Assembly (NCBI GenBank): GCA_016214035.1
Contig: JACRPF010000008.1
Span: forward strand, 124,001 to 188,000
From: Spirochaetota bacterium
Lineage (GTDB): Bacteria; Spirochaetota; Brachyspiria; Brachyspirales; JACRPF01
Direction: 5' to 3'
DNA length: 64,000 nucleotides
Part shown: one piece after another, positions 778 through 27,773 of the stretch
Position numbering within the stretch: position 1 is the stretch's first letter
Layout of the letters: each line of letters begins with the position of its first letter
Notes under the pieces: generated by a model
Databases searched by the model: none
Told to the model about the DNA's origin: nothing
The model's input: only the letters and a program-made list of their open reading frames with translations
Made by a program: the position numbers and the translations under genes

Positions 778-817
778 ACCCCGGCAGTTGGAATACCCCC
801 ATTTCACCGCGATTTGT

Positions 818-845
818 TTGACTTTACCCCGATACAGCGTATAAT
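818..845 (+). promoter_or_regulatory. Sigma-70 type promoter of the lolC-lolD-sprA-like-DUF115 operon
   Basis: A -35 box TTGACT at 818-823 and a perfect -10 box TATAAT at 840-845 are separated by 16 bases. Transcription should start near 852, which leaves a leader of about 43 bases before the ATG at 895. This excludes the upstream in-frame ATG at 814 as the lolC start. The leader contains a GTAC-TTCG-GTAC mini-hairpin. Confidence 0.75.
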
Positions 846-894
846 GATTTCGCATCGAATATGCGGTACTTCGGTACGCCACACAGGAAAGACA

Positions 895-2205
895 ATGCGG
901 CTTGAATTCATGCTCGGCAGACGTTATTTGATGGCAAAACGCAGGCTGTCTTTCGTTTCCATTATTACTGCGCTCTGCATCATCGGCATAACCGCAGGCA
1001 TCAGTCTCCTTATTATGGTAATCTCGGTCATGAACGGATTTGAGGCCGAGGTCCGCGAAAAAATACTCGGCACGCGGGCGCATATCAACATCAGCGGACA
1101 CGACGCAAACGGCATCAGAAACCATAAAATGATCATCGATGAGGCGAAAAAGAACAAGGATGTCGTTCTTGCATCGTCGTACGTCACCTCGCCGGCGATA
1201 CTTCGCACCGCATTCATCGATTCACTCATCAATGTTCGCGCGTTCGATGAGGAAACGTTCCGCAACGACACCAACATGAACCGTTATTTTGTCTTCAAAC
1301 ACGGCAGCGCCGATCTTGCAACGCCCAACGCGGCGCTCATCGGCACCGAGATGGCGGTCAATTATGCGCTCGACATGAACGACTACATCGACGTCATCAC
1401 CGTCGCGGGCGACCGCGCACTCGGATACCGTCCGACCATGCAGCGGCTGCAGGTGAAGGGGATATACAAAACCGGTTATTATGAATATGATTCAAAACTC
1501 GTCATCGTGCCGCTCAAAACGGCGCAGGCAATGGCGGGCATCCCCGACAAGGTGAGCGGTGTTGCAGTCAAGGTGAAGGATTATCTTTCCGCGGATCGCG
1601 TTGCACGCGAGATCGACGCTGCGCTCAAAGGATTATACTTCGTCACACCGTGGATGTACTTTGAACGGAATTTCTTCGAGGCCTTGAAGAACGAAAAGCT
1701 CCTGATGGGTCTTGCGCTCTCAGTCATCATCCTCATCGCTTCGTTCAACATCGCCACCAGTCAGATACTGTTCGTCAAGGACAAACGCCGCGAGATCGCG
1801 ATATTGAAAACGCTCGGGCTGAAGCCATTCAATGTCGCTCAGGTCTTTTTTCTGGAAGGCACCATCATCGGATTCGTCGGCGTCGTCATCGGCGTAACAC
1901 TCGGACTATTCCTTGCCACACATGTAAAGGAAACGCTCGTGGGCATTCAGCGTTTCATGCAGTTCTTCCTTGACATCTATTACTTCTTCGCGCACATCAT
2001 CGTCCCGTCGATGCAGCACCCCTACTTCCCGGAACTGTTTCCGCAGAACGTCTACTACCTCTCCGGCGGTCTCCCGTCGCTGGTCATTCCGGCACAGGTG
2101 GTCACCATCGCGCTTGTATCGTTCGGACTTTCGGTGCTCTTTGCCATCATCCCCGCATACATCGCCAGCAAATACCGTCCGGCAAACGTGCTGAGGTATG
2201 AATAA
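895..2205 (+). CDS. lolC: LolC/LolE-type lipoprotein-releasing ABC transporter permease
   Basis: Inner-membrane permease that, with LolD, releases outer-membrane-destined lipoproteins from the inner membrane. The start at 895 has an AGGAAAG ribosome site, gives the canonical N-terminus MRLEFMLGRRYL, and lies downstream of a TATAAT promoter. The protein has 436 residues, near the usual length of 400-420. It has one N-terminal membrane helix (about residues 23-46), a large periplasmic domain with the family motif VISVMNGFEAEVREKILG, and three C-terminal helices around DKRREIAILKTLGLKP, the coupling region seen in LolC/LolE and MacB-like FtsX permeases. The stop overlaps the lolD start by 8 bases. 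There is only one permease gene, so the complex may be a homodimer (LolF-like). Confidence 0.88.
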   Translation: MRLEFMLGRRYLMAKRRLSFVSIITALCIIGITAGISLLIMVISVMNGFEAEVREKILGTRAHINISGHDANGIRNHKMIIDEAKKNKDVVLASSYVTSPAILRTAFIDSLINVRAFDEETFRNDTNMNRYFVFKHGSADLATPNAALIGTEMAVNYALDMNDYIDVITVAGDRALGYRPTMQRLQVKGIYKTGYYEYDSKLVIVPLKTAQAMAGIPDKVSGVAVKVKDYLSADRVAREIDAALKGLYFVTPWMYFERNFFEALKNEKLLMGLALSVIILIASFNIATSQILFVKDKRREIAILKTLGLKPFNVAQVFFLEGTIIGFVGVVIGVTLGLFLATHVKETLVGIQRFMQFFLDIYYFFAHIIVPSMQHPYFPELFPQNVYYLSGGLPSLVIPAQVVTIALVSFGLSVLFAIIPAYIASKYRPANVLRYE

Positions 2206-2869
2206 CATGAACGCCATCGTTTCAATTAACGGCCTCTGCAAGGCGTTTCCGGGCAATCCTCCGCTTGACGTCATCAAGGACTTTTCACTGAACATACCGT
2301 CCGGTGAAATTCTTGCCGTCACCGGCGCATCGGGTTCGGGAAAGACTACGCTTTTGAACCTTATCGCCGGCATCGACTCCATCACCGGCGGCGACATCAC
2401 GGTTTCGGGAAAATCGGTAGCCCGGATGAACGAACGCGATCTGTCCGTTTTCCGGAGCACCACAATAGGTTATGTGTTCCAGTTCCACAATCTCCTCACG
2501 GAATTCAACGCGCTTGAGAATGTGATGATACCGTTCCTGATTCGCGCATACGACCGGAAGGCCGCGAAACAACGAGCGACGGAGATACTGGAGCGCGTGG
2601 GACTTGCCGGACGCCTGCTCCACCTTGTCGGAGAACTCTCCGGCGGCGAACAGCAGCGTGTGGCAATCGCCCGTGCGCTGGTCAACAATCCGGCGCTGCT
2701 CCTTGCCGATGAACCCACCGGCAATCTTGATCGTACGAACGCCGATATGGTCGCCGATCTCCTCTGGGATATCGCACGCGAGCGGGCCCAGACGCTCATC
2801 ATTGTCACCCATGCGGCGTCGATCGCCGAGCGAGCGCACCGCATTATCGATCTCGGCGGCAGACGCTGA
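2198..2869 (+). CDS. lolD: LolD-type ABC transporter ATPase
   Basis: Cytoplasmic ATPase partner of the permease encoded just upstream. All ABC signatures are present: Walker A GASGSGKT (residues 43-50), Q-loop in GYVFQF (Gln95), signature LSGGEQQR (147-154), Walker B LLLADEP followed by TGNLD (167-178), and the switch His205 in VTH. The length of 223 residues is standard for LolD/MacB-type ATPases. Translation probably couples to lolC through the 8-base overlap; an in-frame ATG at 2207 is an alternative start. Functional pairing with LolC rests on gene order and family. A FtsE-like or MacB-like role is less likely because of the LolC-like permease. Confidence 0.9.
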   Translation: MNNMNAIVSINGLCKAFPGNPPLDVIKDFSLNIPSGEILAVTGASGSGKTTLLNLIAGIDSITGGDITVSGKSVARMNERDLSVFRSTTIGYVFQFHNLLTEFNALENVMIPFLIRAYDRKAAKQRATEILERVGLAGRLLHLVGELSGGEQQRVAIARALVNNPALLLADEPTGNLDRTNADMVADLLWDIARERAQTLIIVTHAASIAERAHRIIDLGGRR

Positions 2870-2880: not shown

Positions 2881-5800
2881 ATGCAACGTATCTTCGCGCG
2901 AATCGTGTTCGCCGCATGCCTCGCCTGCGGCACGCTGTCTGCAAGCGCCATCCTGGATTACCCCGACCTTGATCTTACCGAAATGTATCAAAGCGTCCGC
3001 GTGGGCGGCGAATATCGCCGGAGCCTCAGGCTTTCATTTCTCGCGCCGACCAATTACATTGCCCAGAGTGTTTACGACATGCTCGCGCAGGCAAAACGTG
3101 ATGCGCTGGCCAGGAACACCGCGTCTCTGCCCGGATATTTCGACAGCCTGATTGAACGCACGTTCACATTCGATCAAAGTAAAATCGACATGCTCATGGA
3201 ACTCACGCGTCCGTCGCGGGCGTCGGAGGATGAACAGCGCATCGGCGGCGGCCAGCAGATAACCATAGACCCGGAACGCGACGTGCATATCAATGTACGC
3301 GGCGAGCTGAACACGCGTATATCATGGGGCGCGGCAAAGCAGTTATTCGTATCCGATGACTTCCTCAAATCGGAACATCAGACCAACTCCAGCGCAGGTA
3401 ACTGGCGATGGAACGACGCAGCACCCGGCGGCATCAATTACAACTGGCAGTTTTCCCAGAATTTATTCGTATCGCTGCTCGGCACGGTCGCCAATCAGCT
3501 GAAGATACAGATCGATCACGTGAGCGGCCGCGATGAAAACGCGTACGGCATCGAGTGGCAGCCGGGAGATAAGACGCCGGTGAAAAAATCACGTTCGATA
3601 ATTCAACGCATACAGGTGGGCGACGTCGATATGGCGCTCGGCGGCGGCAGCACATTCATATCCCTCGGCGGCATCAACCGCAAAGCATTCGGGATACGCG
3701 CTGAATTCGAACGGGACAACTTCACCGCAAATCTTATTCTGAGTCTGTCAAAAGGCCTCGTGGCCACCTATTCCTCAGTCGGCAACAGCGAGCTTATCGT
3801 CAGGACGAACTGGGACTACGAATATCTGCGTCGGCGGTTCTTCAATCTCGGGAAACGGAACATCGCGACATATGCCATCTACCGTCTGGGCGCCGGCGCG
3901 CCGAAACTGGTAATCAACGGAAAAGGCTTTGAAGAATTTCAGGGTGAATTTGTGGACCGTGAGCGCGGTATCATCGATTTCGGCAGTGCACGCGAGAGTG
4001 ACACACTCGTCATATTTTTCACCTATTACAGCAACGGCATCGCCACCAAAATGCCCACAACGAATGAAATCATCGACGGCATCACCTATCCTTACGACCG
4101 ATCGGATACGAATTACCGGTATACCGATATGACGAACATGAATATCGCCATTACAAACGCGTCCACGGGCCTGCCGGTTGACACCGCAAATCCATTATTC
4201 GCGTCTTCGAATTTCATTGTACTCATTGACCAGCAGGAAGCGGGGCCGAATCCGTTCGAATTGCGCAACAGCTACTCCATGGAAAGCAGCATCGACGAGA
4301 CCACACTTGAGATATCCCTGTTTAAAAACGACCTTGAAGTCCCCGGCGAACAGAAACACGCCATCGACCGTCGCGGGACATTCAAGACGACAGGGCCGTT
4401 CACGATTGATCTTGATAAAAGCCGTATTGTCTTCGATTCCAATCGTCCCTATTCACTGAATGAAGCGTTATACACGAACCAGACCGGAAAAACCACAGAC
4501 CCCTATATCCCGAAAGCGAATTCATACAACCTTCACATAAAGTATTACCGGAAATCAAGCGGCAGTGCAATTAATCTGATGCCCAACATGATCGAGGGGA
4601 GCGAGACGGTCAAGATAAACAGTGTTGCGGTGCCGAAAACGGAATACACGGTTGATTATGCCGGCGGCATCGTCCGTTTTGTCAACCCCAACCGCGTGGG
4701 AAAGACCGATAAAGTTGACATCACCTACGAGTATAAACCGTTCGGCTCGTCGTTACAGAACACACTTTTCGGCGCGCGGGTGCATTACACCTTCGGCGAT
4801 GAGAATCAGCTCGGTGTGACCTTTCTCAATTCCGGCGGCCAGAAACCCACCGGTGCTCCCTCACCCGATACCGCACCGTCATCGCGCGCGGTGCTCGGCG
4901 CCGACGGAAGATTCAATCTCATGAAACTGCTGGGGTATAACCAGAGTCCGTTCGTTCTCACCGCGGGCGGAGAGATTGCATATTCATGGTATGATATCAA
5001 CACCGTGGACAAAGGCCTCATACTCGACATGGAGGGCGATGAAGACTCGCTTGAAATGCGGGAAACGGAGACCGGCGATCTCTATTACACCTATAACCCG
5101 AAGATCGAACTGAAAAGCGGCGTCACCACGAACGCGCTCGGAGAACTTTATTACATCGACATGCACAAACACGACGGGTTCGGCGGACGTACCTGGCGTG
5201 ATCTCACCTACTCGACGCTTGAAATTATGAAAACCAATCCCGGCGGATTTCTCGAGGTGTCGCCCATAGGGCAGTTCAAGACTTTCAATACCAAACCGGG
5301 ACCGTATATGGCCGGAAATGAAGGGGCGCAGGACCCGCGCCTCTACGCAGACCAGCGCGCCATCGTCTATGACTATGCATTCGACACCAACAAACGGGCG
5401 AACTACGTCTCGGTGGTGCAGGGTTTCAGCACATCGTCGAGCGGCATTACCAACGCCCGCGGTATCGATACGTCGAAATACAACGAGATCGAGATCGTGG
5501 CAAAACTGGTCGCCCCGCTGTCCAACAGTGCGGACCCGCAAAAAGTATACCTCATGCTCGAACTCGGGAATCCGACCGAAGACTTTGACAATAACCTGAA
5601 CCGCAGTTTTGAACAGAATGAGAACGCCACCGGCATGGATTTCAATTATGCGAATATATCCAGGAACGTCAACCGATCTACCCGGCAGGGCGGCGGTTAC
5701 GGCACACCGGGCAGCGCCTCAAATGTAATCGACAACGGTAACGGCAGAATCGATGTGGAAGATCTCAACGGCGACGGACAGTTCTCAATTGATGACGATG

Positions 5801-8800
5801 TAATCGCCTTTCCATCTTCCGCAACGGTCACGATCTCAACAAACATAACGAATACGGCCGCATACGATGACATCACCAATACGCGTATTGAATTCCCGTC
5901 ATATGCGACATTCACGAATAACAGCAACCGGTATACGTATCAGAACACTTTTTATTCCATCACCGCCATGTCGCTGTTCTCAAACGCAAGCGACGGCATG
6001 AAGGGCGTGCCGTACCTCCGCTTGAAAATGCGCATACGCCCCGATATTAGCGCGAATACGCGCAGCGTACTCGAACGGACGAAGGGCCTGCGCTTTTCAA
6101 TCATGCATGCAGACGGAACGCCGGCAGCGGGACGGCTAATCGTCGATCGCGTGAAATTCTCGGCGTCACGCTGGACGGAAGTGTTCGTGGACGGATTCTA
6201 CCCGAAAACATCCGACCAGTTCAAAACCTCCATCATGAACTCGCGCAACGACCCCGAGTATCGTTTCGGTTCGGGGAACCGGCTCATCGACGACAAGGAC
6301 TGGGCCCGCACCTACACAGACCTCCATGGAACGCTCAGCAAGGACGAACGCGAAAAACTCAGCGAAAGCATACTGAAGATCGAGTACTCGCTCAATAATA
6401 TCAGCAATACAAACAGTGCGCTGTCCACGGACGGTGTGAAAGGCGAGCTTGTCATCAACAATTCGGTGAACCGGTTCTACGATCTCTCAATCTACAAGGA
6501 ACTTACGTTCTTCGTGTATCGTGAACGATGGAGCGGCGGGAATGAAGCGCTCCTGTTCCGTTTCGGCGAAGCCACGAACCGGTGCTACAGCATACGCATC
6601 CCGATGTCGCTTTTAAACCGTGAAAAATCTGCAACAGGCACCACGGATATCAAAACGGGATGGAATAAGGTCACCGTCAAACTTATGGAAGCCGGCGTCG
6701 GCAATAATGTGTTCAAGGTACAGGTGAACGGCGGCGATGTCACGGGAGCAACCGTCACGAGGATCGGGAATGCGACCCTTACGAGGATAGCCATGTTCGC
6801 ATTCGGCGTAGATTCATCCGCCGGCATACCCGGCACGCCGCTCAGCGGTGCGATTTGGATCAATGACACGTTTTCCGACCTCGACGTCATGGCTGAGGGA
6901 TGGGCCTGGCGCGCCGACGCCACAATCGCCTATAACGCCCCGATATCCATTGGAGATATACCGATCATCACCTCGGTAGCGGCCACCTATGCGCACAACG
7001 ACCAGCGCAAAGGTTTCGGCAGTATCGGGCAGGGGCTCAACCGCAGCGATAATGCTTCGGATACCTTTTCGTTCCGCACCGCGCTTTTCAAAATGCTCAA
7101 TGCCGACATTTCACTCGCCCAATCCGACACACTGAGCGACACGAACCCGCAGATAATCCCGAAAGACACACAGACATACGGCCTTAACCGCTCCGGCAAT
7201 TTCGGGCTGTCATTCAATTCCGGTCTGCCCTATGTCCCGGTGATATCGCATAATTATTCGGAAACCGTATCGAAAGGATTCAGCGCGGTCCGTGTGGAAT
7301 CGAGCAATACAACGGCGATAAAACTTGTTAAAAGCGAATCGCACGGAAGGACATACGGCATCAATGAAAGCCTTACGATCAACAATCTGTTCGGCATCAA
7401 CGGCGCATCGATAACAGAGAATTACACCATGTCGGCGTCGATACAGAAAACGGTGCAGCAGGAGACGAATAACGTCAACGAGCAGTCACTGTCATTCGAC
7501 CGCGACGGACAGTATTCGCGCGTCGTCGGCTATTTCTATGACGGAGACAACGTGTTCAACAGCGATCTGCGTAAGAATGACATCGCCGATTTCCGCGATG
7601 TCGTATCCGCAAAATACATATTCTCCCAGAATCAGAGCGGGTCGCTCTCGCTCGGCATGCCGTGGTTTTCGCTCGGCCTGACACTGTCGCACGGTCTCAA
7701 CCAGTATACCGATTATGCGTCGAGTATCCGCAACGCGATCTCCGACCTGTTCGAACGGGATTATTTCACCCAATTCGCCACGCTCTGGAGCCCGAACCTT
7801 CTCGACATACCGGTGGATGAGGTCGTGATCATCACGAACTCGCCGTCGAACTATACGACCAATCATATCACCAGACGCAGAAGCATCATGTCATCGGAAT
7901 CCTACAGTTCCGGGCAGACATTAACCGTGCCTCCCGTCCCCTTTCTCGGTGCGATCACCTTCGGCGTGAACGAAAGCTACAGCGAAAGCGGATATCAGTA
8001 TGATTCATCAAAAAAATACTCGCGACTTACCAACGCATTCACGAACATAGCCGAGTTCATCTCGAATTTCGCGGTATACGGCTATAACGCATCAAACGCA
8101 TACAAAAACGCCACGCTGTCGCTCTCGGCAAACCTCGCATTCGCGCTCAATTTCAAGGATATCTGGAAGGAATGTCCGCTGCAGTCCATCCCGCTGAGTT
8201 TCACGAGGACCATCGCCGCGTCGGAGAACATGATACCCGCAGGAAAATTCTCGTTCGGCACGAATACGTACGATTTCAACGTACTTCGCTATGCCGGAAC
8301 GGTTATACCCTCGCTGTTCATGCCGCCGTGGTACTATATTGATTATCCGTTCGCACCGGTTGTCAGGGCGCTTTTCGCCGGTACCAATGCGCCGAACGCG
8401 CAGCAGCGCCACAACGCGTCAAAAGCGGTGAGCGAGATGCTGAGCTATTACGACTGGCGCACGCAGCGTTATACGGTGCCGTACGCAAATGACGAGTACA
8501 GCGCGGTTGCGGGCCTCAATGAGACATATTCCATAACGTTCCAGTTCGTTGAACTGCCGGTGGTGAAATTGTTCCTGCCGTCGTCATTCGCATGGTCGAT
8601 GTCGCTCGCCACCGCGCGGGATACGCTGGGGAAAATTTCACAGAGCGATACGTATTCCATCAGTCTCGGACGCGGCATCAGCATCATAGACATCATCAAA
8701 CTCATACATCCGCCGTTCGAGGACCCGTTTTTGCGATCGACATCATTAAACTACTCGTTTGCCTACGGCCTGAACAATAATTACAATACAAAACTGCAGA

Positions 8801-9498
8801 GCGAGACGTTCAACGGATCGCTCTATTTCTCGTTCCGTGTGCTCAACAATCTTCCGCTGAACATCAACTGCACCTATCAGGGAACAAAGAAACTCCAGTA
8901 TCTGCGGTATAACACCGCAGGTACTCCGTATATGGGCATCGGTTATCGCGGCACGATTACGAATGCGGCCACGCAGCAGTATTATCTGCTGTATAACATC
9001 GGCGACAATGAATACGGGTTCGACTTTTCACGCGACTCCGGTATCGCGGCGATAGACCCCGGCAAGACGGAACATACGTTTGCGATAGACGCATCGCTCA
9101 CCTTCCCGCAGATGAGCGATGAAATCCTATTCTTCAAACTCGAAAAGGCGATCACGCTGAACCATACGATACATGTTGCCATGCCGTATTTCAGATTCGC
9201 ATCATATGACGACACGGTCATGTTTGCACAGACCGGCAATATCAAGGCTGATGTAACATCGGCGAAGTATATCGACCTGACCGGCAACCAGGTTGACGCG
9301 TCCATCGACTTCCTGCAGCTCGTCGCCGAATACCGCGTGGGGTTCAGTCTGAACGAATACATAACGATAAACGAATACAATAAGATCCCGCTGTTCTTCC
9401 GCCAGTACTACCGCACATCGAAGGAACTCGCCGATAAAAACAAGTGGGAGATGATGGCGGGCATCGAAATAGGCGCCGATGTCACACTCAGGTTCTGA
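2881..9498 (+). CDS. Giant SprA/Sov-like outer-membrane protein
   Basis: A 2205-residue exported protein, 11 bases after lolD. The N-terminus is a signal peptide (hydrophobic core AFAACLACGTLS type, cleavage probably after ASA at residue 23). The C-terminus ends in the barrel signal ...VTLRF with terminal Phe. Several segments match the SprA/Sov pattern known from Bacteroidota: NGKGFEEFQGEF with RERGIIDFG (about 347-370), PNMIEGSETVKIN with YTVDYAGGIVRF (about 568-600), then PFGSSLQNTLFGARVHYTF, then a D-M-E-G-DE block (about 715). SprA is the 36-strand translocon of type IX secretion. Residues 951-973 hold two calcium-loop-like motifs (DNGNGRID, DLNGDGQF). The last ~900 residues are rich in alternating aromatic strands, consistent with a very large barrel. 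No other type IX component is visible in the window, so secretion activity is inference. Confidence 0.72.
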   Translation: MQRIFARIVFAACLACGTLSASAILDYPDLDLTEMYQSVRVGGEYRRSLRLSFLAPTNYIAQSVYDMLAQAKRDALARNTASLPGYFDSLIERTFTFDQSKIDMLMELTRPSRASEDEQRIGGGQQITIDPERDVHINVRGELNTRISWGAAKQLFVSDDFLKSEHQTNSSAGNWRWNDAAPGGINYNWQFSQNLFVSLLGTVANQLKIQIDHVSGRDENAYGIEWQPGDKTPVKKSRSIIQRIQVGDVDMALGGGSTFISLGGINRKAFGIRAEFERDNFTANLILSLSKGLVATYSSVGNSELIVRTNWDYEYLRRRFFNLGKRNIATYAIYRLGAGAPKLVINGKGFEEFQGEFVDRERGIIDFGSARESDTLVIFFTYYSNGIATKMPTTNEIIDGITYPYDRSDTNYRYTDMTNMNIAITNASTGLPVDTANPLFASSNFIVLIDQQEAGPNPFELRNSYSMESSIDETTLEISLFKNDLEVPGEQKHAIDRRGTFKTTGPFTIDLDKSRIVFDSNRPYSLNEALYTNQTGKTTDPYIPKANSYNLHIKYYRKSSGSAINLMPNMIEGSETVKINSVAVPKTEYTVDYAGGIVRFVNPNRVGKTDKVDITYEYKPFGSSLQNTLFGARVHYTFGDENQLGVTFLNSGGQKPTGAPSPDTAPSSRAVLGADGRFNLMKLLGYNQSPFVLTAGGEIAYSWYDINTVDKGLILDMEGDEDSLEMRETETGDLYYTYNPKIELKSGVTTNALGELYYIDMHKHDGFGGRTWRDLTYSTLEIMKTNPGGFLEVSPIGQFKTFNTKPGPYMAGNEGAQDPRLYADQRAIVYDYAFDTNKRANYVSVVQGFSTSSSGITNARGIDTSKYNEIEIVAKLVAPLSNSADPQKVYLMLELGNPTEDFDNNLNRSFEQNENATGMDFNYANISRNVNRSTRQGGGYGTPGSASNVIDNGNGRIDVEDLNGDGQFSIDDDVIAFPSSATVTISTNITNTAAYDDITNTRIEFPSYATFTNNSNRYTYQNTFYSITAMSLFSNASDGMKGVPYLRLKMRIRPDISANTRSVLERTKGLRFSIMHADGTPAAGRLIVDRVKFSASRWTEVFVDGFYPKTSDQFKTSIMNSRNDPEYRFGSGNRLIDDKDWARTYTDLHGTLSKDEREKLSESILKIEYSLNNISNTNSALSTDGVKGELVINNSVNRFYDLSIYKELTFFVYRERWSGGNEALLFRFGEATNRCYSIRIPMSLLNREKSATGTTDIKTGWNKVTVKLMEAGVGNNVFKVQVNGGDVTGATVTRIGNATLTRIAMFAFGVDSSAGIPGTPLSGAIWINDTFSDLDVMAEGWAWRADATIAYNAPISIGDIPIITSVAATYAHNDQRKGFGSIGQGLNRSDNASDTFSFRTALFKMLNADISLAQSDTLSDTNPQIIPKDTQTYGLNRSGNFGLSFNSGLPYVPVISHNYSETVSKGFSAVRVESSNTTAIKLVKSESHGRTYGINESLTINNLFGINGASITENYTMSASIQKTVQQETNNVNEQSLSFDRDGQYSRVVGYFYDGDNVFNSDLRKNDIADFRDVVSAKYIFSQNQSGSLSLGMPWFSLGLTLSHGLNQYTDYASSIRNAISDLFERDYFTQFATLWSPNLLDIPVDEVVIITNSPSNYTTNHITRRRSIMSSESYSSGQTLTVPPVPFLGAITFGVNESYSESGYQYDSSKKYSRLTNAFTNIAEFISNFAVYGYNASNAYKNATLSLSANLAFALNFKDIWKECPLQSIPLSFTRTIAASENMIPAGKFSFGTNTYDFNVLRYAGTVIPSLFMPPWYYIDYPFAPVVRALFAGTNAPNAQQRHNASKAVSEMLSYYDWRTQRYTVPYANDEYSAVAGLNETYSITFQFVELPVVKLFLPSSFAWSMSLATARDTLGKISQSDTYSISLGRGISIIDIIKLIHPPFEDPFLRSTSLNYSFAYGLNNNYNTKLQSETFNGSLYFSFRVLNNLPLNINCTYQGTKKLQYLRYNTAGTPYMGIGYRGTITNAATQQYYLLYNIGDNEYGFDFSRDSGIAAIDPGKTEHTFAIDASLTFPQMSDEILFFKLEKAITLNHTIHVAMPYFRFASYDDTVMFAQTGNIKADVTSAKYIDLTGNQVDASIDFLQLVAEYRVGFSLNEYITINEYNKIPLFFRQYYRTSKELADKNKWEMMAGIEIGADVTLRF

Positions 9499-9524: not shown

Positions 9525-11402
9525 ATGCGTGAACGCAATATTCTGGCCATCGGGGCTCACCGGCATCTATTCCCCGCCGACACGCTCACACGGCTGGCCG
9601 CATCGGTACCGCACTCCGATCTCACATTCACCGCGCACGAAAAAACGTTTCAGGTAACTGCGGCTGGCTCATCGTTCTTCATGCACAGCCGCTACGATCC
9701 GCTGAAAGAGGCGCGTGAACTTATCAAGGACATCCCCGCCGACCGGGAAACCGATATCGTCGCCGTACTCGGTGTCGGCGCGGGACACGTGGTGCGGGAG
9801 CTCACCGCGGCCTGTCCCGACATCGCGGTCATCGCCGTCGAACCGTCCTATGAAACATTCGATTTCGTGCTCAGCCACTTCGATATGACCGACATCATCG
9901 GCAACGAACACATCACCTGGTTTATCGGCGACGATCAATTGAAGGATATAGAGCAGTATCTTTCATTGATATCCACCAAGAAGATTCGCATCATCACCAT
10001 GCGCGGATACCATCGCCTCTTCCCGGCCTATCTCGGCAGCCTCGCGCACGGCATACTTGATTTTGTCGACAAGAAAAGCATCAATCTGAATACGATAATG
10101 CGTTTCGACCGGCTGTGGGCGTACAACAGCATCGCCAACACGTCCGTGCTGCCGTTCGCGTCCGGCGTGAACAGACTCTTCGACGCATTCAAAGGCGTAC
10201 CCGCCGTCATCGTCTCCGCGGGACCGTCGCTGGAAAAGAACATCCGCATGCTTGCGGCGATGAAAAAAAAGGCGGTCATCATCGCTGTCGACACCGCGCT
10301 CAAACCCCTGTCACTGCACGGCATCATCCCGCATATCACCGCGGCCGTCGACCCGCAGGGCAAGAACGCGAAATATTTCCGCGGCATAAAAACCGACGAT
10401 ACGATACTCGTCGCCGAACCGTCGATACACAATGAAATATTCCGTTCGTACAAGGGACCGGTGTATCTCATGGATTCCGTCTTTCCGCTCGCGCAGCGGC
10501 TTATGAGTCACCGCGGCGCGCACGGCGAAATAACCATGGGCGGTTCCGTATCAACCACCGCGTTCGACCTCGCCTGCCGCATGGGTGCAAACCCTATTAT
10601 CATGCTCGGGCTCGACCTTTCATATCCGAAACTCGCCACACACGTGAAGGGAAGCTTCCACGAGGATGATTTTCTCACGCAGATCGGAAAACTCGACACG
10701 TACGACGGGCGCGTCTATAAGCTGCTTCTGGCCGGACGACTTACCCCGGCGCTCGACATCCATGGTGAAACGGTGTTCGTCGATGCACGGTTCATCATGT
10801 ATCGTGACTGGTTTGAACGTCACATTGCGGCGCATCCGGGCATCACCGTGTATAACGCCACCGAAGGCGGTATTCCAATCAGGGGTATGGTAAACCGTCC
10901 GCTGGCTCAGATCGCCGCGGAGCTTCCCGATACGGTTCATGACTTTGCACCGTTCTTCGCCGATACACTCGGCACGGATGAAATGATCGGCATTTGCGAC
11001 AGGATACGCGAAGACTTCCATGCAATCGCCGGAGACCTTGCCCGCATACGGAAACTGGTGGACAATGGACTTCTGCTCACAAGAAACCTCGAGCGCGAAC
11101 TTCAACACAAACGCGATGTGTCAGCTATCATCGCCGCACTCGACAAAAACGACGAAGCCATCATCGACTGCGGGAATGCGAAGGATTTCATCGGCATAAC
11201 CATGCAGCGCACCATCCATATGCTCAAAGAAGGATATCAGCTTGACGACAGTACGCCGGACGGGAAAGGGAACAGCATGAACGCCGTAGCCAATTCACGC
11301 ACCTTTTACCGCGAGATGCTGCGCTCGATAGACTTCAATGAACAACTTGTCTTGATGGGCATAGAGCGGATCAATGAAAAAGCCCGCCGGTTAAGCGTCT
11401 GA
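9525..11402 (+). CDS. DUF115 / MAF-type glycosyltransferase family protein
   Basis: A 625-residue cytoplasmic protein whose centre carries the DUF115 (MAF_flag10 / MptE-like) signatures: GVPAVIVSAGPSLEKNIRML, then ITAAVDPQ, then MGGSVSTTAFDLACRMG followed by PIIMLGLDLSYP. In Campylobacter, Helicobacter, Aeromonas and spirochaetes, proteins of this family are motility accessory factors that attach nonulosonic acids to flagellin. The archaeal MptE branch makes a pterin diphosphate instead. The start at 9525 is preferred because it leaves a GGA-rich site upstream; ATG 9510 is possible. It lies 26 bases after the SprA-like gene and overlaps the convergent HD gene by 32 bases. The acceptor cannot be deduced. 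Confidence 0.8.
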   Translation: MRERNILAIGAHRHLFPADTLTRLAASVPHSDLTFTAHEKTFQVTAAGSSFFMHSRYDPLKEARELIKDIPADRETDIVAVLGVGAGHVVRELTAACPDIAVIAVEPSYETFDFVLSHFDMTDIIGNEHITWFIGDDQLKDIEQYLSLISTKKIRIITMRGYHRLFPAYLGSLAHGILDFVDKKSINLNTIMRFDRLWAYNSIANTSVLPFASGVNRLFDAFKGVPAVIVSAGPSLEKNIRMLAAMKKKAVIIAVDTALKPLSLHGIIPHITAAVDPQGKNAKYFRGIKTDDTILVAEPSIHNEIFRSYKGPVYLMDSVFPLAQRLMSHRGAHGEITMGGSVSTTAFDLACRMGANPIIMLGLDLSYPKLATHVKGSFHEDDFLTQIGKLDTYDGRVYKLLLAGRLTPALDIHGETVFVDARFIMYRDWFERHIAAHPGITVYNATEGGIPIRGMVNRPLAQIAAELPDTVHDFAPFFADTLGTDEMIGICDRIREDFHAIAGDLARIRKLVDNGLLLTRNLERELQHKRDVSAIIAALDKNDEAIIDCGNAKDFIGITMQRTIHMLKEGYQLDDSTPDGKGNSMNAVANSRTFYREMLRSIDFNEQLVLMGIERINEKARRLSV

Positions 11403-17222: not shown

Positions 17223-18716
17223 CTATGAGTTCAGCAGTCTGAGGAACGCGATGTTATCCTTGGTCGACTGCATCTTGTCGATGATAAGCTCCATAACTTC
17301 GGACTCCTCCATATTCTGGAGGTATTTGCGAAGCGCCCACATCTTCTGTAATTCCTCTTCATTGAGAAGAAGCTCCTCGCGGCGCGTTGACGATGCGTTG
17401 ATATCGATGGCCGGAAATATTCTCCGGTTGGCGAGTTTTCGCATGAGATGAAGCTCCATGTTCCCGGTGCCTTTGAACTCTTCATAAATAAGTTCATCCA
17501 TGCGTGAACCGGTGTCGACAAGTGCGGTAGCAAGTATCGTGAGGCTTCCGCCCTGCTCGATATTGCGTGCGGCACCAAAGAATTTTTTGGGTTTGTGAAG
17601 CGCGTTAGAATCAACACCGCCCGACAGTATCTTGCCGCTCGCGGGAACAACCTGATTGTATGCGCGCGCAAGACGTGTTATCGAGTCAAGCATGATGACC
17701 ACGTCTTTTCCGTGTTCGACAAGCCGCTTTGCCTTCTCGATGACCATCTCTGCGACCTGCACGTGATGCTCGGCCTGTTCATCGAAGGTTGAGCTTATGA
17801 CCTCTGCTTTCACCGAACGGCGCATATCGGTTACTTCTTCCGGGCGCTCATCGACGAGGAGCACAAAAACCACCACTTCCGGATGATTATGCTCTATCGC
17901 GTTGGTTATCTCCTGCAGTATCATCGTTTTACCGGCTTTCGGCGGTGATACGATGAGCCCACGCTGTCCTTTGCCGATGGGTGATACAAGATTAATAATG
18001 CGCGTTGATATTTTTGAAGGCGAGAATTCAACATTCAGCCGTTCATTCGGGAATGTCGGGGTGAGTGAGTCGAACTGTCGGCGATTGTAGATCTCATCCG
18101 TACGTTTCCCGTTAACCGTATCGACACGGAGGAGCGCGAAAAAACGCTCATTGTCTTTCGGCGGACGCACCTGTCCATTGACGACATCGCCGGTGCGAAG
18201 CCCGAACAGTCGTATCTGCGAGGGTGATATATAAATATCATCAGGACCGGGCAGATAGTTGAACAGCACGGAACGCAGGAATCCATATCCGTCAGGCAGC
18301 ACTTCAAGTGTGCCGTCGGCGTATATCGTCCCGCCATTGGTTATCTGCATACGCAGCAGCGAATGCATGAGATCCTGACGTTTGATATTCCCTTCAATCG
18401 ACAGCCCGTACCGCCGGCCCATGTCGATGAGTTTGTCTATCGGCAGCGCTGACAACTTGCTGATATACAGTATCTGATCGATCTCGCTTTTGCCGTCAGG
18501 CGATTTCGCGATAAGATGCACCTCTTCGGTTGCATCGCTCTTTACCGCGGCTTCGGCATTCTCCGCCGCATTATCCACCGGCATGGCGTCTTCGCGCTGT
18601 TTTACTTTTACCTTGAAGCGCCCTTCACCATCGCCATGGCCGCCGCCGTCCCGCGGGACTCGTTTCATTGTTCTTCGTACAGGTTTCTTGTAATCAGCCA
18701 CGGTGGCGCTCCTCAT
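17223..18716 (-). CDS. rho: Transcription termination factor Rho
   Basis: Hexameric RNA-dependent ATPase that ends transcription. The 497-residue protein is longer than E. coli Rho (419) because of an Arg/Gly/Lys-rich N-terminal extension of about 80 residues. The Rho N-domain ([20 protein letters not shown]) and the cold-shock-like RNA-binding domain with DGYGFLR (142-148) follow. The ATPase core has Walker [13 protein letters not shown] (253-264), the [12 protein letters not shown] block, and [16 protein letters not shown] with the Q-loop region GKILSGGVD. It lies downstream of the ribosomal superoperon but has its own promoter overlapping the end of rplQ, with a leader of about 190 bases. 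Confidence 0.97.
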
Positions 18717-18916
18717 GATCCGGACTTTTGTTCGATAATGTCCAGTATGTAATTTTTTTTATGTGCACTATCATATTTTCCAGTAAGCTGCCGCGCCCGC
18801 TTACGGGCACAGAATCATCTTATCTGTTACACTTTCGCCATCATTTATATTATGAAGATCACAGATCATTTGGGGGAATGCCGTGCCGGCGATAACTCAC
18901 GTTTACTGTACCATTT

Positions 18917-18944
18917 ACTATACAATAATCGTGAATAATGTCAA
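18917..18944 (-). promoter_or_regulatory. rho promoter, just beyond the rplQ stop
   Basis: On the minus strand: perfect -35 TTGACA (18939-18944), 16-base spacer, -10 TATAGT (18917-18922). It begins one base past the rplQ stop codon. The resulting leader of about 190 bases runs to the rho ATG at 18716. It contains a GCCCG/CGGGC hairpin (18795-18808) and an A-run, so leader-based autoregulation of rho, known in other bacteria, is possible. Confidence 0.7.
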
Positions 18945-18945
18945 C

Positions 18946-19377
18946 CTAACTGCCTTTTGCAGTCTTGGCGGGTGCTGCCGTCGTTTTTGCCGGCGTCGCG
19001 GTTGTTGGTGCAGCTGCGGCCGCTTCATCGGTCAGCATGACATAACACATCTGAGCCGCGTCGCCGAGCCGTGCATATGCAAGCAGCTTTCTTGTGTAAC
19101 CGCCGGTGCGGTTCTTAAAACGCGGTGCGATGTCCTTAAAAAGCTTTGTATGCGCTTTCTCGCCGACGATATATTTTTCAACCTGCCGGCGTGCATGAAC
19201 GGTGTCTTTCTTCGCGCTGTGAATCACGCGATCGGCAATACGCTTCAGCTCAATGCCTTTCTGCTGTGTTGTATACACTTTTTCTTTCAGGATGAGTGAT
19301 GTAAGCATATTCCTGAACATGGATTTCTGATGAGCGCTTGTGAGATTGAATTTTTTTGTTTTATTGCGGTGACGCAT
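18946..19377 (-). CDS. rplQ: 50S ribosomal protein L17
   Basis: Last gene of the ribosomal superoperon. MRHRNKTKKFNLTSAHQKSMFRNM is replaced in most bacteria by MRHRxxxxKLxRxxxHRxAMxRN, and the downstream LILKEKVYTTQQKGIELKRIADRVI block is diagnostic. The protein has 143 residues against 115-130 usually; the surplus is a C-terminal tail of Ala, Thr, Pro and Lys after the conserved MLTDE end. It binds at the exit side of the large subunit. The start lies 20 bases after the rpoA stop. Confidence 0.95.
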   Translation of the reverse strand: MRHRNKTKKFNLTSAHQKSMFRNMLTSLILKEKVYTTQQKGIELKRIADRVIHSAKKDTVHARRQVEKYIVGEKAHTKLFKDIAPRFKNRTGGYTRKLLAYARLGDAAQMCYVMLTDEAAAAAPTTATPAKTTAAPAKTAKGS

Positions 19378-19397
19378 ATAATTCCTCTTTGTTCCGT

Positions 19398-20369
19398 TTA
19401 TCGCATGCCGAGAGTCGCATTATACTCAGCAAGCTTCTCCTTGATTTCCTGAATGATCATTTCATTCGCGCCGATCATCCGTTCAAGATCGCTGTCAGTC
19501 TTCATGGCGACGCGATCAAGCGTCTTAAGATCGTTATTGTTGAGGAAGTTCGCCGTCCTGATTGAGAACTCAACTTCTTCTATATGAACGTCCTTAAGTC
19601 TGTCAAGCGCGCTTTCTTCCTGTGATCCGTCCTCGCTGCCGCTTTCATCGTCAGCTTCCTCGATGTGGAGGAATGCGAACAGATTGTTGCGCAGTATCTT
19701 TGCAGCCCATGAGACCGCTTTATCCGGACTGATGGTGCCGTTCGTTTCAACTTCCAGCGTGAGTTTACCGTAATCGGTGCGCTGCCCGACGCGGATATCT
19801 TCGACATTAAGCTTGACCCGGCGTATCGGAGAATACATCGCATCGATGGCGACAGCGCCGATCTCCTGTACGAGCTGTTCGTTCATTTCTGACGGAACAT
19901 ACCCGTAACCGGAATCGATCTGAAGATCCATGACTATCTTGCCGCCTTCGGACAGCGTGGCGATAACGTGATCCTTGTTGAACACTTCAACCGAACTGTC
20001 TGCCGCCGCAATATCACCGGTGGTGAACGTTCCGGGGCCTTCCTTCTTTATGTGTACCATCTTGGTGTCAAGACCGTCGGTGAGGCGCACCACCGCACGT
20101 TTCAGGTTCAGTATGATCATGGCGGTGTCTTCTTTTACGCCTTTGATGTTCTCATACTCGTTGCTTACACCTTCGATCTTTATCGTCGATACCGCATAAC
20201 CCGGAATCGAAGAGAGCAATGCGCGGCGGAGGGCATTCCCTATGGTCACCGCATAGCCTTTTTCGAACGGCTGAGCGACGAATTTACCGTACTCTTTGGT
20301 CATCGCCTCTTTTTCAAACGTGACCCGATGCGGTTTTTTCGTTGATTCAAGAATATCTTTGAGCGCCAT
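19398..20369 (-). CDS. rpoA: RNA polymerase subunit alpha
   Basis: Assembles beta and beta-prime and contacts promoters and activators. The 323-residue protein has the assembly domain with FVAQPFEKGYAVTIGNALRRALLSSIPG (conserved dimerisation segment, residues about 31-58) and GYGYVPSEMN. A short acidic linker (DDESGSEDGSQEES) precedes the C-terminal domain, which holds VEFSIRTANFLNNNDLKTL. The usual 'R..NCL....I.T..DL' pattern is kept, with TANFL in place of the more common NCL. Located between rpsD and rplQ, as in most bacteria. Confidence 0.97.
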   Translation of the reverse strand: MALKDILESTKKPHRVTFEKEAMTKEYGKFVAQPFEKGYAVTIGNALRRALLSSIPGYAVSTIKIEGVSNEYENIKGVKEDTAMIILNLKRAVVRLTDGLDTKMVHIKKEGPGTFTTGDIAAADSSVEVFNKDHVIATLSEGGKIVMDLQIDSGYGYVPSEMNEQLVQEIGAVAIDAMYSPIRRVKLNVEDIRVGQRTDYGKLTLEVETNGTISPDKAVSWAAKILRNNLFAFLHIEEADDESGSEDGSQEESALDRLKDVHIEEVEFSIRTANFLNNNDLKTLDRVAMKTDSDLERMIGANEMIIQEIKEKLAEYNATLGMR

Positions 20370-20387
20370 GTACTACAACCTCGCTTT

Positions 20388-21014
20388 TTATTTCGAATAG
20401 AGCTCGATGATCAGCTGCTCTGTTATCGGGTAATCGATGTGCTCGCGCCGCGGCAGGGACACAATCTTGCCTTGCTGTGCGGCCGGATCATATGACAACC
20501 ACGCCTGCAAATACTCAACCTTCATGTTCTCCAATATCGCTTTGATGACCGGGCGTTCCTTGCTCTTGGGATTGAACTCGATGACATCACCAAGCTTCAC
20601 TGTGTATGACGGAATCGCGACTTTGTGGCCGTTCACGAATATATGATTATGCGTGACAAACTGCCGCGCCTGCGGACGCGACTTTGCGTATCCGAGACGA
20701 TAGAGCACATTGTCAAGTCTGAGCTCAAGCAGCATGAGCAAATCTTCGCCGGTGATACCCTTGCGTTTTGCCGCTGCACGGTACATATTCCTGAACTGCC
20801 GCTCAAGAACTCCGTACATGCGTTTCACCTTCTGCTTTTCACGCAGCTGAACTCCGAACTCGGAGAGCTGTTTGATGCGCCGGTTACGCGGCCCCGGGAT
20901 ATCCCGTTTTTTCGTTATTGAACATTTTGCGGAAAGGCACCGTTCGCCCTTCAGCATTAATTTAACTCTCTCTCGTCTGCACAATCTGCAAACCGAACCT
21001 GTGTGTCGTGCCAT
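20388..21014 (-). CDS. rpsD: 30S ribosomal protein S4, zinc-binding form
   Basis: Primary 16S-binding protein of the body of the small subunit, 208 residues. The N-terminus carries a four-cysteine zinc motif (Cys9, Cys12, Cys26, Cys31: C-x2-C-x13-C-x4-C), so this is the C+ form. The S4 RNA-binding domain begins with LELRLDNVLYRLGYAKSRPQARQFVTHNHI (about 95-125). Gene order rpsM-rpsK-rpsD-rpoA-rplQ is the classic alpha operon. S4 regulates this operon in E. coli; no pseudoknot target was recognised here. Confidence 0.97.
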   Translation of the reverse strand: MARHTGSVCRLCRRERVKLMLKGERCLSAKCSITKKRDIPGPRNRRIKQLSEFGVQLREKQKVKRMYGVLERQFRNMYRAAAKRKGITGEDLLMLLELRLDNVLYRLGYAKSRPQARQFVTHNHIFVNGHKVAIPSYTVKLGDVIEFNPKSKERPVIKAILENMKVEYLQAWLSYDPAAQQGKIVSLPRREHIDYPITEQLIIELYSK

Positions 21015-21033
21015 GATATCTCCTTACCTATTC

Positions 21034-21477
21034 CTATACGCGGCGCCGTTTCTTCGGACGGCATCCATTATGCGGTATCGGCGTTACGTCTTTAATCGCA
21101 AGCACCTTAATTCCTGCGCTCTCGATCGCACGGACAGCTGATTCACGTCCCATACCGGGACCTTTTACTTTAACATCAACCTCGCGCACACCGGCGTCGA
21201 ATGCGCGCTGCGATGCGCGTTCACTGGCCATCTGAGCTGCAAACGGCGTCGATTTTTTCGAGCCTTTGAAACCAACGGCACCCGAGGACGATGTCACAAT
21301 CACATTCCCTCTGCGGTCGGTTATCGTCACTATAGTATTATTGAAGCTGGCATGTACATGTACATAGCCGAACGCTTCAATCTTTCTTTCTTTCTTTTTC
21401 TTGGCGATTGCAGAATCTGCTGCTTTTTTCGCCGCCGCCTTCTGGGTGTCGGTAAGACCCGCTTTTACATCAGCCAC
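21034..21477 (-). CDS. rpsK: 30S ribosomal protein S11
   Basis: Platform protein of the small subunit near the mRNA exit. Core motifs [45 protein letters not shown] and the basic end [12 protein letters not shown] are all present. At 147 residues it is about 18 longer than usual because of an Ala/Lys-rich N-terminal stretch (residues 1-34). The ATG is 21 bases after the rpsM stop. Confidence 0.96.
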
Positions 21478-21498
21478 GTGTTATCTCCTTGATTCCTC

Positions 21499-21885
21499 TT
21501 ATCCCTTGGTCGGGACCTTCTTCTTGCCGGCAACGGTCTTGCGTCCGCCGCCGCGCGCATTGCGAGAATTGGTACGGGTGCGTTGACCGCGCACCGGCAG
21601 CCGTTTCTGATGCCGTACGCCGCGGTACGTCTTAATATCCCGCAGCCGCTTGATATTCATCATCACTTCGGTGCGAAGATCACCCTCGACCTTTGTCGTC
21701 GATTCGATCGCTTCGCGGATGGCGGTGATCTGCGAGTCATTAAGATCCCCTGCCTTCAACGTGTATTCGATCTTTGCTTTATCGCAGATCGATTTCGCCA
21801 TTGAGCGACCGATACCATAGATAGCGGTGAGCGCAAATGCGATGCTTTTCTTTGGGGCTAAATCAACCCCGGCGATGCGTGCCAT
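21499..21885 (-). CDS. rpsM: 30S ribosomal protein S13
   Basis: Head protein that touches the P-site tRNA and the L5 bridge. The 128 residues include [29 protein letters not shown] (helix-hairpin-helix) and the basic C-terminal tail [20 protein letters not shown] that reaches the P site. Length and order (after rpmJ) are standard. Its start lies 12 bases downstream of the rpmJ stop. Confidence 0.97.
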
Positions 21886-21897
21886 ACCGTGTGCTCC

Positions 21898-22011
21898 TTA
21901 TGCCTGTTTCTGCTTATGACGCGGATTCTTGCAGATTATCCGTATCACGCCTTTACGTCGCACAATCTGGCATTGATTGCAGCGTTTTTTAATCGAACTT
22001 CTTACTTTCAT
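21898..22011 (-). CDS. rpmJ: 50S ribosomal protein L36
   Basis: A 37-residue protein, [14 protein letters not shown] to the end HKQKQA. It keeps the zinc ribbon ligands Cys11, Cys14, Cys27 and His32, so it is the zinc-binding (C+) form. It sits between infA and rpsM, its usual place. It is easily missed because of its size. Confidence 0.95.
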
Positions 22012-22037
22012 ATCACTAGCTCCGTTCTTAAATCAGT

Positions 22038-22259
22038 TCACTTATATCGGTAAATAATCCGCCCTTTCGTCAGGTCATAGGGCGAAAGTTCAAGCGTTAC
22101 TTTGTCTCCCGGCAATATCCGGATGAAGTTCATCCGCATCTTCCCCGAAATATGCGCCAGAATCTGATGACCGTTCTGAAGCTTCACCCTGAATGTTGCA
22201 TTCGGCAGTGACTCGAACACCACGCCTTCAACCTCAATGGTTTCCTTGCTTTCAGACAT
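22038..22259 (-). CDS. infA: Translation initiation factor IF-1
   Basis: An S1/OB-fold protein that occupies the A site during initiation. The 73 residues contain [39 protein letters not shown] and the end [12 protein letters not shown], matching family length and sequence. It follows secY directly, without adk or map genes between them, an economical variant of the spc-alpha junction. Confidence 0.97.
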
Positions 22260-22264
22260 GCAAC

Positions 22265-23587
22265 CTATCTCCTGTAGGTCTTTGCTTTTTTCATAAAGCC
22301 TTCATAATTGTGCATCTGCAGTCTAGATTCTATCTGTTTCATAGTGTCAAGATCGACCGCGATGAGGATCAGGAGCGATGTACCGCCCATCAGATACGGC
22401 AACTCACGCGGTGCGCTCGCGAACATCGGAACCTTGAGGATCAGGTCGGGGAATATCGCGATCATCGCCAGAAAAAACGATCCGCCAAAGGTGAGCCGGC
22501 TCAATACGCCTTTGAGGTATTCGGCAGTCTGTGTTCCCGGACGTATACCCGGAACGAACCCGCCTGAACGCTTCAAATTCTCGGCAATATCTACCGGATT
22601 GAACAGCACCGATGTGTACAGATACGCGAATCCGATTACGAGCAGGAAATAGATGATGATATAACTCCATGTCCCGTGCTGAAATATCATGAACAGTGAG
22701 TTAAGCCATTTCGCGTGAAAAATACTTGATACCTGCGATGGCACCATAATAATCGCTGATGCAAAAATAATCGGAATAACACCCGATGGATTTATCTTGA
22801 ATGGGATATGCGTATTCTGTGCGCCGTACACGCGGTTGCCGACAACACGCTTTGCATACTGCACCGGAATGCGCCGTTGTCCCGATTCCTCATATACGAC
22901 GAGGAAAATGACTACTGCGAAAATAACCAGCAAGAGCACCATCGCCAGCGCATTAAAATCACCTGTCCGTACTTTCTCAAACGCGTTGAATATCGCCGCA
23001 GGGATTCTTGCCGCAATACCGGCATAGATGATGAGCGAGGTACCGTTCCCGATACCGCGTTCGGTTATTTGTTCACCTAACCAGACGAGAAACATGGTTC
23101 CGGTTATCGAGGTAAGCATGACGAGAAGGAGAAACCCGATTCCGGGATTCTCGAAATACACCATACGTCCGCCCTCAATACCTTTAATCCAGTTCGCCAA
23201 GGCCAGCGACTGAACACCGCAAAATACTATAGTAAGATATCGTGTGAACTGATTGATCTTTTTTCGTCCCTGCTCGCCTTCTTTCTGCAGCCGTTCTATC
23301 GAAGGAACGATGACACCGAGAAGCTGCATTACGATAGATGCCGTAATATACGGCATGATACCGAGTGCAAATATCGTGAACTTGAAAAGCGCTCCACCGG
23401 AAAACAGGTCGATGATACCGAGTAAACCGCCGCCTGAACGTTCAAAATACGCAAGCAGTTCCGCCGGATTGATACCCGGGGTCGGAATGTGTGCGCCAAG
23501 GCGGTACACGACGAGAGCGCCGAGCGAAAATAATATTCTGCTCCGTAATTCCGGTACTTTGAAGATATTTGAGAGCGTGCTTGCCAT
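22265..23587 (-). CDS. secY: Protein translocase subunit SecY
   Basis: Central channel of the Sec translocon with about ten membrane helices in 440 residues. It shows the N-terminal [27 protein letters not shown], the plug region with [33 protein letters not shown], and [15 protein letters not shown] further on. The basic cytosolic loops [14 protein letters not shown] and the C-terminal segment are conserved. The start overlaps the rplO stop by one base (TAATG), implying translational coupling. Confidence 0.97.
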
Positions 23588-24081
23588 TATGCCTTCACCT
23601 TACCGGCGTTTTTTTCAGCGCGTACCCACTTTGCATGCTCAACAATGATGACTTTCCCGCCGGCTTTCTCGATTTTTGCAACCGCTGTTTTACTGGCAGC
23701 ATCAACCGTAACCGTGACGGCTTTCGTTATTTCACCGTCACTGAGTATCTTAATGCGGTTCGCCGCTGCCGATAGAAATCCTTTTTTCAAAAGCATATCG
23801 CGGTCGACAGCCGAAGCGCCGAGCTTGTCCAAATCACCGACACTGATCACTTCAAATCCTTTATTGAAACGCACATTGTTAAAACCGAACTTCGGCAGAC
23901 GGCGCAGAAGCGGTATCTGTCCGCCCTCGAAACCGAGCTTACGGCGATATCCGCTGCGCTGCTGCGCGCCTTTATTGCCTTCGCCTGCGGTGCATCCCCA
24001 TCCGGAACCGGTACCACGGCCGATGCGTTTAGAATCTTTCCGGCAGCCTTTCGGGGCCGGGATTATTTTCTTATTTTCCAT
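23587..24081 (-). CDS. rplO: 50S ribosomal protein L15
   Basis: Late-assembly large-subunit protein. The Gly-rich N-terminal RNA-binding stretch GRGTGSGWGCTAGEGNKGAQ is followed by GFEGGQIPLLRRLPKFGFNN, both diagnostic. The protein has 164 residues, slightly longer than the usual ~145-150, with an Ala/Lys C-terminal tail. It lies 2 bases after rpmD and overlaps secY by one base. Confidence 0.96.
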   Translation of the reverse strand: MENKKIIPAPKGCRKDSKRIGRGTGSGWGCTAGEGNKGAQQRSGYRRKLGFEGGQIPLLRRLPKFGFNNVRFNKGFEVISVGDLDKLGASAVDRDMLLKKGFLSAAANRIKILSDGEITKAVTVTVDAASKTAVAKIEKAGGKVIIVEHAKWVRAEKNAGKVKA

Positions 24082-24083
24082 AA

Positions 24084-24269
24084 CTATTTAACCTCGCGCA
24101 CGCTCAGGAGATGCGACACTTTATTGATCATGCCCTGCACAACCGGCGTAAGATCCTTCTCGACCACACGCACATGTCTGCTGAAACCGAGCGCACGCAC
24201 GGTATCTTTCTGAGAATGATGCTGCCGAATGACCGACTTCATCAATGTTATTTGAACTTTCTTCGCCAT
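24084..24269 (-). CDS. rpmD: 50S ribosomal protein L30
   Basis: A 61-residue protein with QITLMKSVIRQHHSQKDTVRALG and VQGMINKVSHLL, the short bacterial L30 form. Its position between rpsE and rplO confirms the call. Confidence 0.94.
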   Translation of the reverse strand: MAKKVQITLMKSVIRQHHSQKDTVRALGFSRHVRVVEKDLTPVVQGMINKVSHLLSVREVK

Positions 24270-24285
24270 ACTATTCCCTCGTCAT

Positions 24286-24849
24286 CTATTCTGCGGGTGC
24301 CGCTTCGGCCGCTACCGCGCTTTTTCCGAAAAGTTCTTCAACCGTCTTGCCCCGCTTTCTGGCAATTGCTTCGATGCTCATGATGCGTGTCAAAGCCTCG
24401 AACGTCGCTTTCGCGCTGTTGATCGCCGTCGACGAACCAAGACATTTTGAAAGAATATTCTTGACGCCTGCCGCTTCAAGAACCGCCCGCACCGCTCCGC
24501 CGGCTATAACACCGGTACCTTTGCTCGCCGGTTTTAACAGAACGCGGGTGCTGCCGTGACGCCCGATAATCTCGTGCGGAACGGTACCGCCCCGTAAACT
24601 GACTCTGATCATGGTTTTCTTTGCATGTTCGGTTGCCTTTCGTATGGCTTCCGGCACTTCTTTCGCCTTGCCGAATCCGATACCGACACGACCCATCTTA
24701 TCTCCGAGCACGATGAGCGCCGAAAAGCTGAAGCGCCTACCGCCTTTCACCACTTTTGAAACGCGGTTAAGGTCTATTATCTTTTCCTCGAATTCCTTTT
24801 TCTCGTCATGTCCGACTTCGAGCTCTTTTTCACGATTCCGTTTTGCCAC
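24286..24849 (-). CDS. rpsE: 30S ribosomal protein S5
   Basis: Small-subunit protein at the mRNA entry, important for decoding accuracy. The double-stranded-RNA-binding-like domain ([20 protein letters not shown]) and the second domain [20 protein letters not shown] are clear. [23 protein letters not shown] loop follows. At 187 residues it is a little long, with an N-terminal charged stretch and an Ala/Glu tail. Confidence 0.96.
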
Positions 24850-24874
24850 GGCTTTTCTCCTTGCTGTGTTCCCG

Positions 24875-25231
24875 TCAGAATTTCAGGCCGGCTTCACGCG
24901 CCGCTTCCGCGAGCGCTTTCACCTTGCCGTGATAACTCAATCCGTTGCGGTCAAAAACAACTTTATCAACATTCTTTTTCAACGCACGTTCTCCGATGAG
25001 CTTACCGATCGTCTTTGCGGCCTCAAGATTCTTGCCGCTCTTCAGATCTTTTTCCATCGTTGATGCGCTTACGATGGTAACACCCTTCGTATCGTCTATC
25101 ACCTGGGCTGAGATATAACGAAGGCTTTTCGTTATCGTAAGGCGCGGGCGCGACTCGTCTCCGCTTACGCGTTTACGTATCGTCATTTTGCGCCGTATTT
25201 TGCTTGCTTTGATTTGTTCGCGTTCCGTCAT
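24875..25231 (-). CDS. rplR: 50S ribosomal protein L18
   Basis: 5S rRNA-binding protein of 118 residues. It shows [32 protein letters not shown] and [27 protein letters not shown], all canonical. It is located between rplF and rpsE. Confidence 0.96.
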
Positions 25232-25246
25232 TGTATGGTCCTTAGT

Positions 25247-25825: not shown

Positions 25826-25844
25826 AATTTGTCCTTACTACCCG

Positions 25845-26249: not shown

Positions 26250-26258
26250 CGTATTCTC

Positions 26259-26444: not shown

Positions 26445-26454
26445 TATCTTTCTC

Positions 26455-26994: not shown

Positions 26995-27008
26995 AACGTC
27001 TTTTGTCC

Positions 27009-27377: not shown

Positions 27378-27387
27378 CGATCATCTC

Positions 27388-27756: not shown

Positions 27757-27773
27757 ACTGTTTCCTCAGACCT

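Follow-up and report, generated by a model that had tools for sequence, protein, structure and literature searches.

A giant gene on the plus strand of the window, the 64,000-nucleotide stretch of a Spirochaetota genome analysed here, is almost certainly a true, distant homologue of SprA/Sov outside Bacteroidota, and likely encodes the translocon of a type IX-like secretion system comprising SprA, PorV shuttles dedicated to individual cargoes, and cargo with C-terminal sorting domains (CTDs). Such a system is the best explanation for the joint presence of SprA and PorV homologues and type-A-like CTDs, the pairing of CTD and PorV genes, and the co-occurrence of these components. Published accounts restrict type IX secretion to Bacteroidota or to the FCB superphylum (PMC4793230, PMC7463736, PMC11205867), and no report of a type IX system in Spirochaetota was found in the open-access literature searched. 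The gene and its neighbours have the following features:

814 to 2205, plus strand: lolC/E-type lipoprotein-release permease (TIGR02212, E 7.2e-85), with its start likely at the ATG at 895
818 to 845, plus strand: sigma-70-like promoter sequence TTGACT-N16-TATAAT upstream of lolC (consensus scan, 11/12 positions)
2198 to 2869, plus strand: lolD ABC ATPase (TIGR02211, E 3.3e-72)
2881 to 9498, plus strand: sprA-like gene with ATG start, for a giant outer-membrane protein of 2205 aa (matches to TIGR04189 and, by family profile, to PDB 6h3i)
2881 to 2949, plus strand: putative Sec signal peptide MQRIFARIVFAACLACGTLSASA, read off the translation
4381 to 4917, plus strand: best SprA-matching stretch, residues 501–679 (PNMIEGSETVKIN...YTVDYAGG...PFGSSLQNTLFGARV), matching positions 537–714 of the TIGR04189 profile
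9484 to 9495, plus strand: C-terminal TLRF, an aromatic end (F-terminal in 22 of 24 family members)
9525 to 11402, plus strand: DUF115/MAF gene, MptE-like and PseD-like (PF01973, E 8e-43; FlagModPseD match)

The reading frame at 2881–9498 is intact, and the SprA-type motifs quoted in an earlier, sequence-only reading of this DNA (PNMIEGSETVKIN, YTVDYAGG and PFGSSLQNTLFGARV) are found in its translation. The homology claimed in that reading is borne out by profile searches: TIGR04189 (T9SS translocon Sov/SprA) matches the protein at E 5.7e-21 with 73.5 bits (NCBIfam scan), and with E 4.3e-44 a profile of 24 relatives reaches the solved SprA of F. johnsoniae (6h3i, 8gl6, and others), aligning with 6h3i over residues 3–885 and a second stretch, 991–1529. 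Relatives of 1600–2300 aa were gathered across the phylum, those with names being "uncultured Spirochaetia bacterium" and "Spirochaetes bacterium" UWPOB_SPIRO2; TIGR04189 is matched by 18 of the 24 (best E 7e-43), and identity between families among the SprA homologues of the phylum is ~20%. The genome that contains the window has one SprA match.

The score of the window protein lies well under the equivalog cut-off of TIGR04189 (200 bits), so the protein taken alone shows only a distant relative; the best relative scanned singly, at 146 bits, also falls below it. The Pfam scan of the window protein returned no SprA family at E ≤ 1. The single window protein gave no match in a phmmer search of the PDB, and a profile of its five closest relatives found no SprA there (top match lysenin, E 0.1). 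AlphaFold models of two SprA fragments, made from three alignment rows, had pLDDT of 33 and 36 and are unusable, so their predicted strands are not evidence, and a single 36-strand barrel for the window protein is an unproven fold that rests on homology. A C-terminal aromatic residue (phenylalanine) is usual for barrels inserted by BAM. The protein is like SprA/Sov in profile homology, length, signal peptide, aromatic C-terminus, and the PorV and CTD partners encoded in its genome; it differs in scoring below the equivalog cut-off, in its gene neighbours, in a barrel assigned by homology, and in that the C-terminal third of SprA has no significant alignment with the 24-relative profile.

The immediate surroundings of the gene are as the sequence-only reading described them: sprA starts 11 nt past the end of lolD (2869) and ends 26 nt before the in-frame ATG of the DUF115 gene (9525), and the single TATAAT promoter proposed is present as TTGACT-N16-TATAAT at 818–845, the best of 19 sites between 600 and 12600, where shuffled sequences would be expected to hold 11.9. 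It is a promoter-like site for lolC-lolD-sprA-DUF115, such a scan being no proof of function. This tight operon behind one promoter-like site, together with the M23 endopeptidase or DUF115 gene that adjoins sprA in some relatives, would suit a SprA-like barrel that works with LolCD in the biogenesis of the outer membrane or of lipoproteins, or with DUF115 in surface glycosylation, and to which PorV and CTD proteins would be unrelated. That role is improbable in view of the strong co-occurrence of SprA with PorV and CTDs, the pairing of CTD and PorV genes, and the variable neighbours of sprA: among ~25 neighbourhoods of SprA relatives, lolCD lies beside sprA at the window locus only, the upstream side of the sister genome being absent from the comparison because its contig begins inside sprA. 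DUF115 adjoins sprA at 3 of the ~25 loci (the window, the sister genome of the same family, and one other family) and is probably an incidental neighbour; the only other gene that recurs beside sprA is that of an M23 peptidase, which accounts for 5 of the 101 neighbours in the Pfam assignments. The proposed tie of the SprA homologue to lipoprotein export and glycosylation comes from adjacency, and it is weak since that adjacency is not conserved. The absence of further type IX genes stated in the sequence-only reading agrees with the PorV and CTD matches listed for the window but fails for the genome, and the suggestion of a SprA serving another purpose outside a type IX context is not supported, given the PorV homologues, ~30 CTD proteins, and CTD–PorV gene pairs found there.

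Elsewhere in the window, a housekeeping block on the minus strand (17226–36534), of use for taxonomy, encodes Rho, RNA polymerase alpha, SecY, ribosomal proteins, EF-Tu, and EF-G, and in a 976-aa protein encoded at 44691–47621, PD40 beta-propeller repeats come after a peptidase MA-like domain. Some 5–10 kb upstream of the window are two adjacent large ORFs of secreted type (L013 4389–6824 and 6847–8916), which have in common a near-identical N-terminal stretch, HKNKNETYKRDNPxDRKAVNWN.

The search for PorV homologues to which the sequence-only reading had pointed returned 11 PorV-family matches in the genome at E ≤ 1e-3, the best at 1.2e-28 and over the cut-off (NF033709). A nine-row PorV profile has its best PDB match, at E 2e-20, in chain F of 6h3i, which is the PorV bound in the SprA complex, and matches the FadL-type TodX at only E 0.03; the PorV shuttle of a T9SS is found in this genome, in a FadL-like family whose closest solved relative is the SprA-complex PorV. 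In Bacteroidota, one general PorV serves type-A cargo. The homologues described here differ from PorV in that a genome has many of them, often encoded immediately after a single cargo gene, and in the TPR-like helical C-terminal extension of the copies from the window's own family (L083 9523–10974, L099, L100, L102, and L103).

Type IX C-terminal signals, also named in the sequence-only reading as something to look for, are present as well, with 27 matches to TIGR04183 (type-A sorting domain) in the genome, the best at E 2.5e-10. Nineteen of the 21 matches inspected end 0–4 aa from the C-terminus of proteins of ~600–2930 aa, and all 18 aligned CTDs match TIGR04183, with the consensus NNPxRGxGxIxFxNLP...IYSVSGKLVAxL...GxxxW...NGRRVxPGVYLC...GxKxVKVMVxR. 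They resemble Por_Secre_tail (TIGR04183, PF18962) in occupying ~75–85 residues at the exact C-terminus and in the IY.(V)SG and PGVY motifs and final K..K strand; they differ in their lineage-specific consensus, weak PF18962 scores, and some resemblance to FlgD_ig. A lineage CTD profile has 37 matches in the genome, including the 18 sequences from which it was built, and about 30 long proteins end in a type-A sorting domain, as the cargo of a T9SS does. The bodies of these proteins contain subtilase, CBM35/CBM6, M14, phosphoesterase, LamG, and fn3 domains, as would be typical of exported enzymes or surface modules. The same profile has 17 matches in the sister genome and 13–44 in several further families; it matches nothing in three order-mates that have no SprA (G010, G014, and G018), nor in one f19 family genome of 1.1 Mb. 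Type-A CTDs (Por_Secre_tail) have also been reported outside Bacteroidota in Poribacteria, in a study that found no Por structural genes there (PMC3909097); SprA and PorV accompany the CTDs in the genome described here.

Eight of the 18 aligned CTDs match FlgD_ig as well, and even an order-mate with no SprA encodes a small secreted protein that is FlgD-Ig-like (L114), so that the CTDs could be read as Ig modules of FlgD type with a role in folding or adhesion rather than as secretion signals, with SprA and PorV serving other substrates. The ranking of the CTD profile against solved structures, with PorZ (1.5e-5), PorU (1.4e-3), and the 8glk translocon cargo CTD (2e-3) ahead of FlgD (0.066), the T9SS models that likewise outrank FlgD, the placement of the CTDs at the exact C-terminus, and their direct pairing with PorV leave that reading with a small chance, somewhat below that of a role with LolCD or DUF115. 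The small secreted or lipoprotein-like protein, which consists mostly of the FlgD-Ig-like domain, is encoded at 1843–2232 of L095 (contig C21 of the window's own genome) and at 1454–1861 of L114 (order-mate G010); the same zinc-ribbon gene adjoins it at both loci, and in L095 a PorV-like gene overlaps the end of its gene. Since this protein is present also where SprA is not, gives false TIGR04183 matches, and so inflates counts made with that model across the phylum, CTDs were recognised instead by the lineage profile (A6) and by their position at the C-terminus.

CTD and PorV genes often lie directly next to each other. For at least 45 of 147 listed CTDs, in 10 genomes, the next gene downstream, 60–403 nt away and in the same orientation, encodes a PorV; two control arrangements, with PorV on the opposite strand or at the other side of the CTD, gave no case within 500 nt, and ~0.3 would be expected by chance. 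Among the listed PorVs, those paired with a CTD (lineage profile) number at least 4 of 8 in the window's own genome, at least 6 of 9 in the sister genome, and at least 3 of 5 in G040. This pairing suggests one dedicated shuttle per cargo. A cargo gene beside that of a dedicated outer-membrane partner recalls the type-B CTDs and cognate PorP/SprF proteins of Bacteroidota (see PMC9143113), but the pairs described here consist of a type-A CTD and a PorV.

Across the phylum, a 13-row profile finds SprA matches, some of them weak, in 155 of 393 Spirochaetota genomes; PorV occurs in 151 of these 155 (Fisher p 1.6e-36, shared ancestry ignored) and a CTD in 111 (Fisher p 9e-32, again ignoring shared ancestry). 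Order-mates G010 and G018, which have no SprA, have no PorV either, and many order-mates, ~3 Mb genomes of one genus, contain no sprA gene. Some genomes have PorV or CTDs and no SprA match; many of the PorV-positive ones belong to family f19, where SprA matches lie near the threshold and SprA may therefore be missed. Many f19 genomes encode one giant CTD-ended protein and one PorV-like protein and give weak SprA matches; in one of them (G331) the loci are L115 3607–9813 and L116 3534–4883, and the PorV-like protein has a TPR-like tail. The f19 set is possibly a reduced version of the SprA–PorV–CTD system. The assembly has an estimated contamination of 4.65% (it is 98.2% complete), but contaminating contigs of Bacteroidota, or a recent transfer, are a very unlikely source of these genes, as homologues occur in 155 genomes at ~20% identity between families, the sister genome has the same CTD type as this genome (E 1e-30), and sprA shares the 64-kb window with rpoA, secY, and ribosomal genes and its contig with a CTD gene (C22:11612–11863), which argues against contamination as the source of sprA.

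In the type IX-like system proposed, the product of the window gene would be the outer-membrane translocon. Sec would take the cargo across the inner membrane, several of the proteins having visibly signal-like N-termini; a PorV would bind the cargo CTD in the SprA pore, and PorV and cargo together would leave the pore laterally and reach the cell surface, as they do in Flavobacterium. Many cargoes would have their own PorV, encoded directly downstream, unlike in Bacteroidota. Searches of 26 genomes gave one sub-threshold match to GldL (G001) and no match to GldM, and control genomes were equally silent; the motor may thus be diverged, of a different kind, or absent. The chances that the PorLM motor is missing are about even, and a SprA–PorV–CTD system possibly operates without it. 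Such a motorless version needs explaining, since F. johnsoniae deprived of its motor accumulates transport intermediates and transport stalls (PMC10994853). For the PorU sortase, NF033707 matched only at profile positions 945–1095 and never over the cut-off; these matches were rejected as sortases because they cover only the CTD-like tail of PorU, with no sortase body.

It may be, although the idea is tentative, that a minimal type IX system of SprA, cargo-dedicated PorVs, and CTD cargo, with no PorLM, is old and widespread in Spirochaetota, has been lost in some host-associated lineages, and elsewhere has shrunk to a single PorV with a single giant CTD protein. The presence of translocon, shuttle, and signal throughout a further phylum would alter the picture of the origin of type IX secretion, and paired CTD–PorV genes with no recognisable motor would make the view of the motor as a later addition testable. 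The system would also give a name to a route of protein export to the spirochaete surface.
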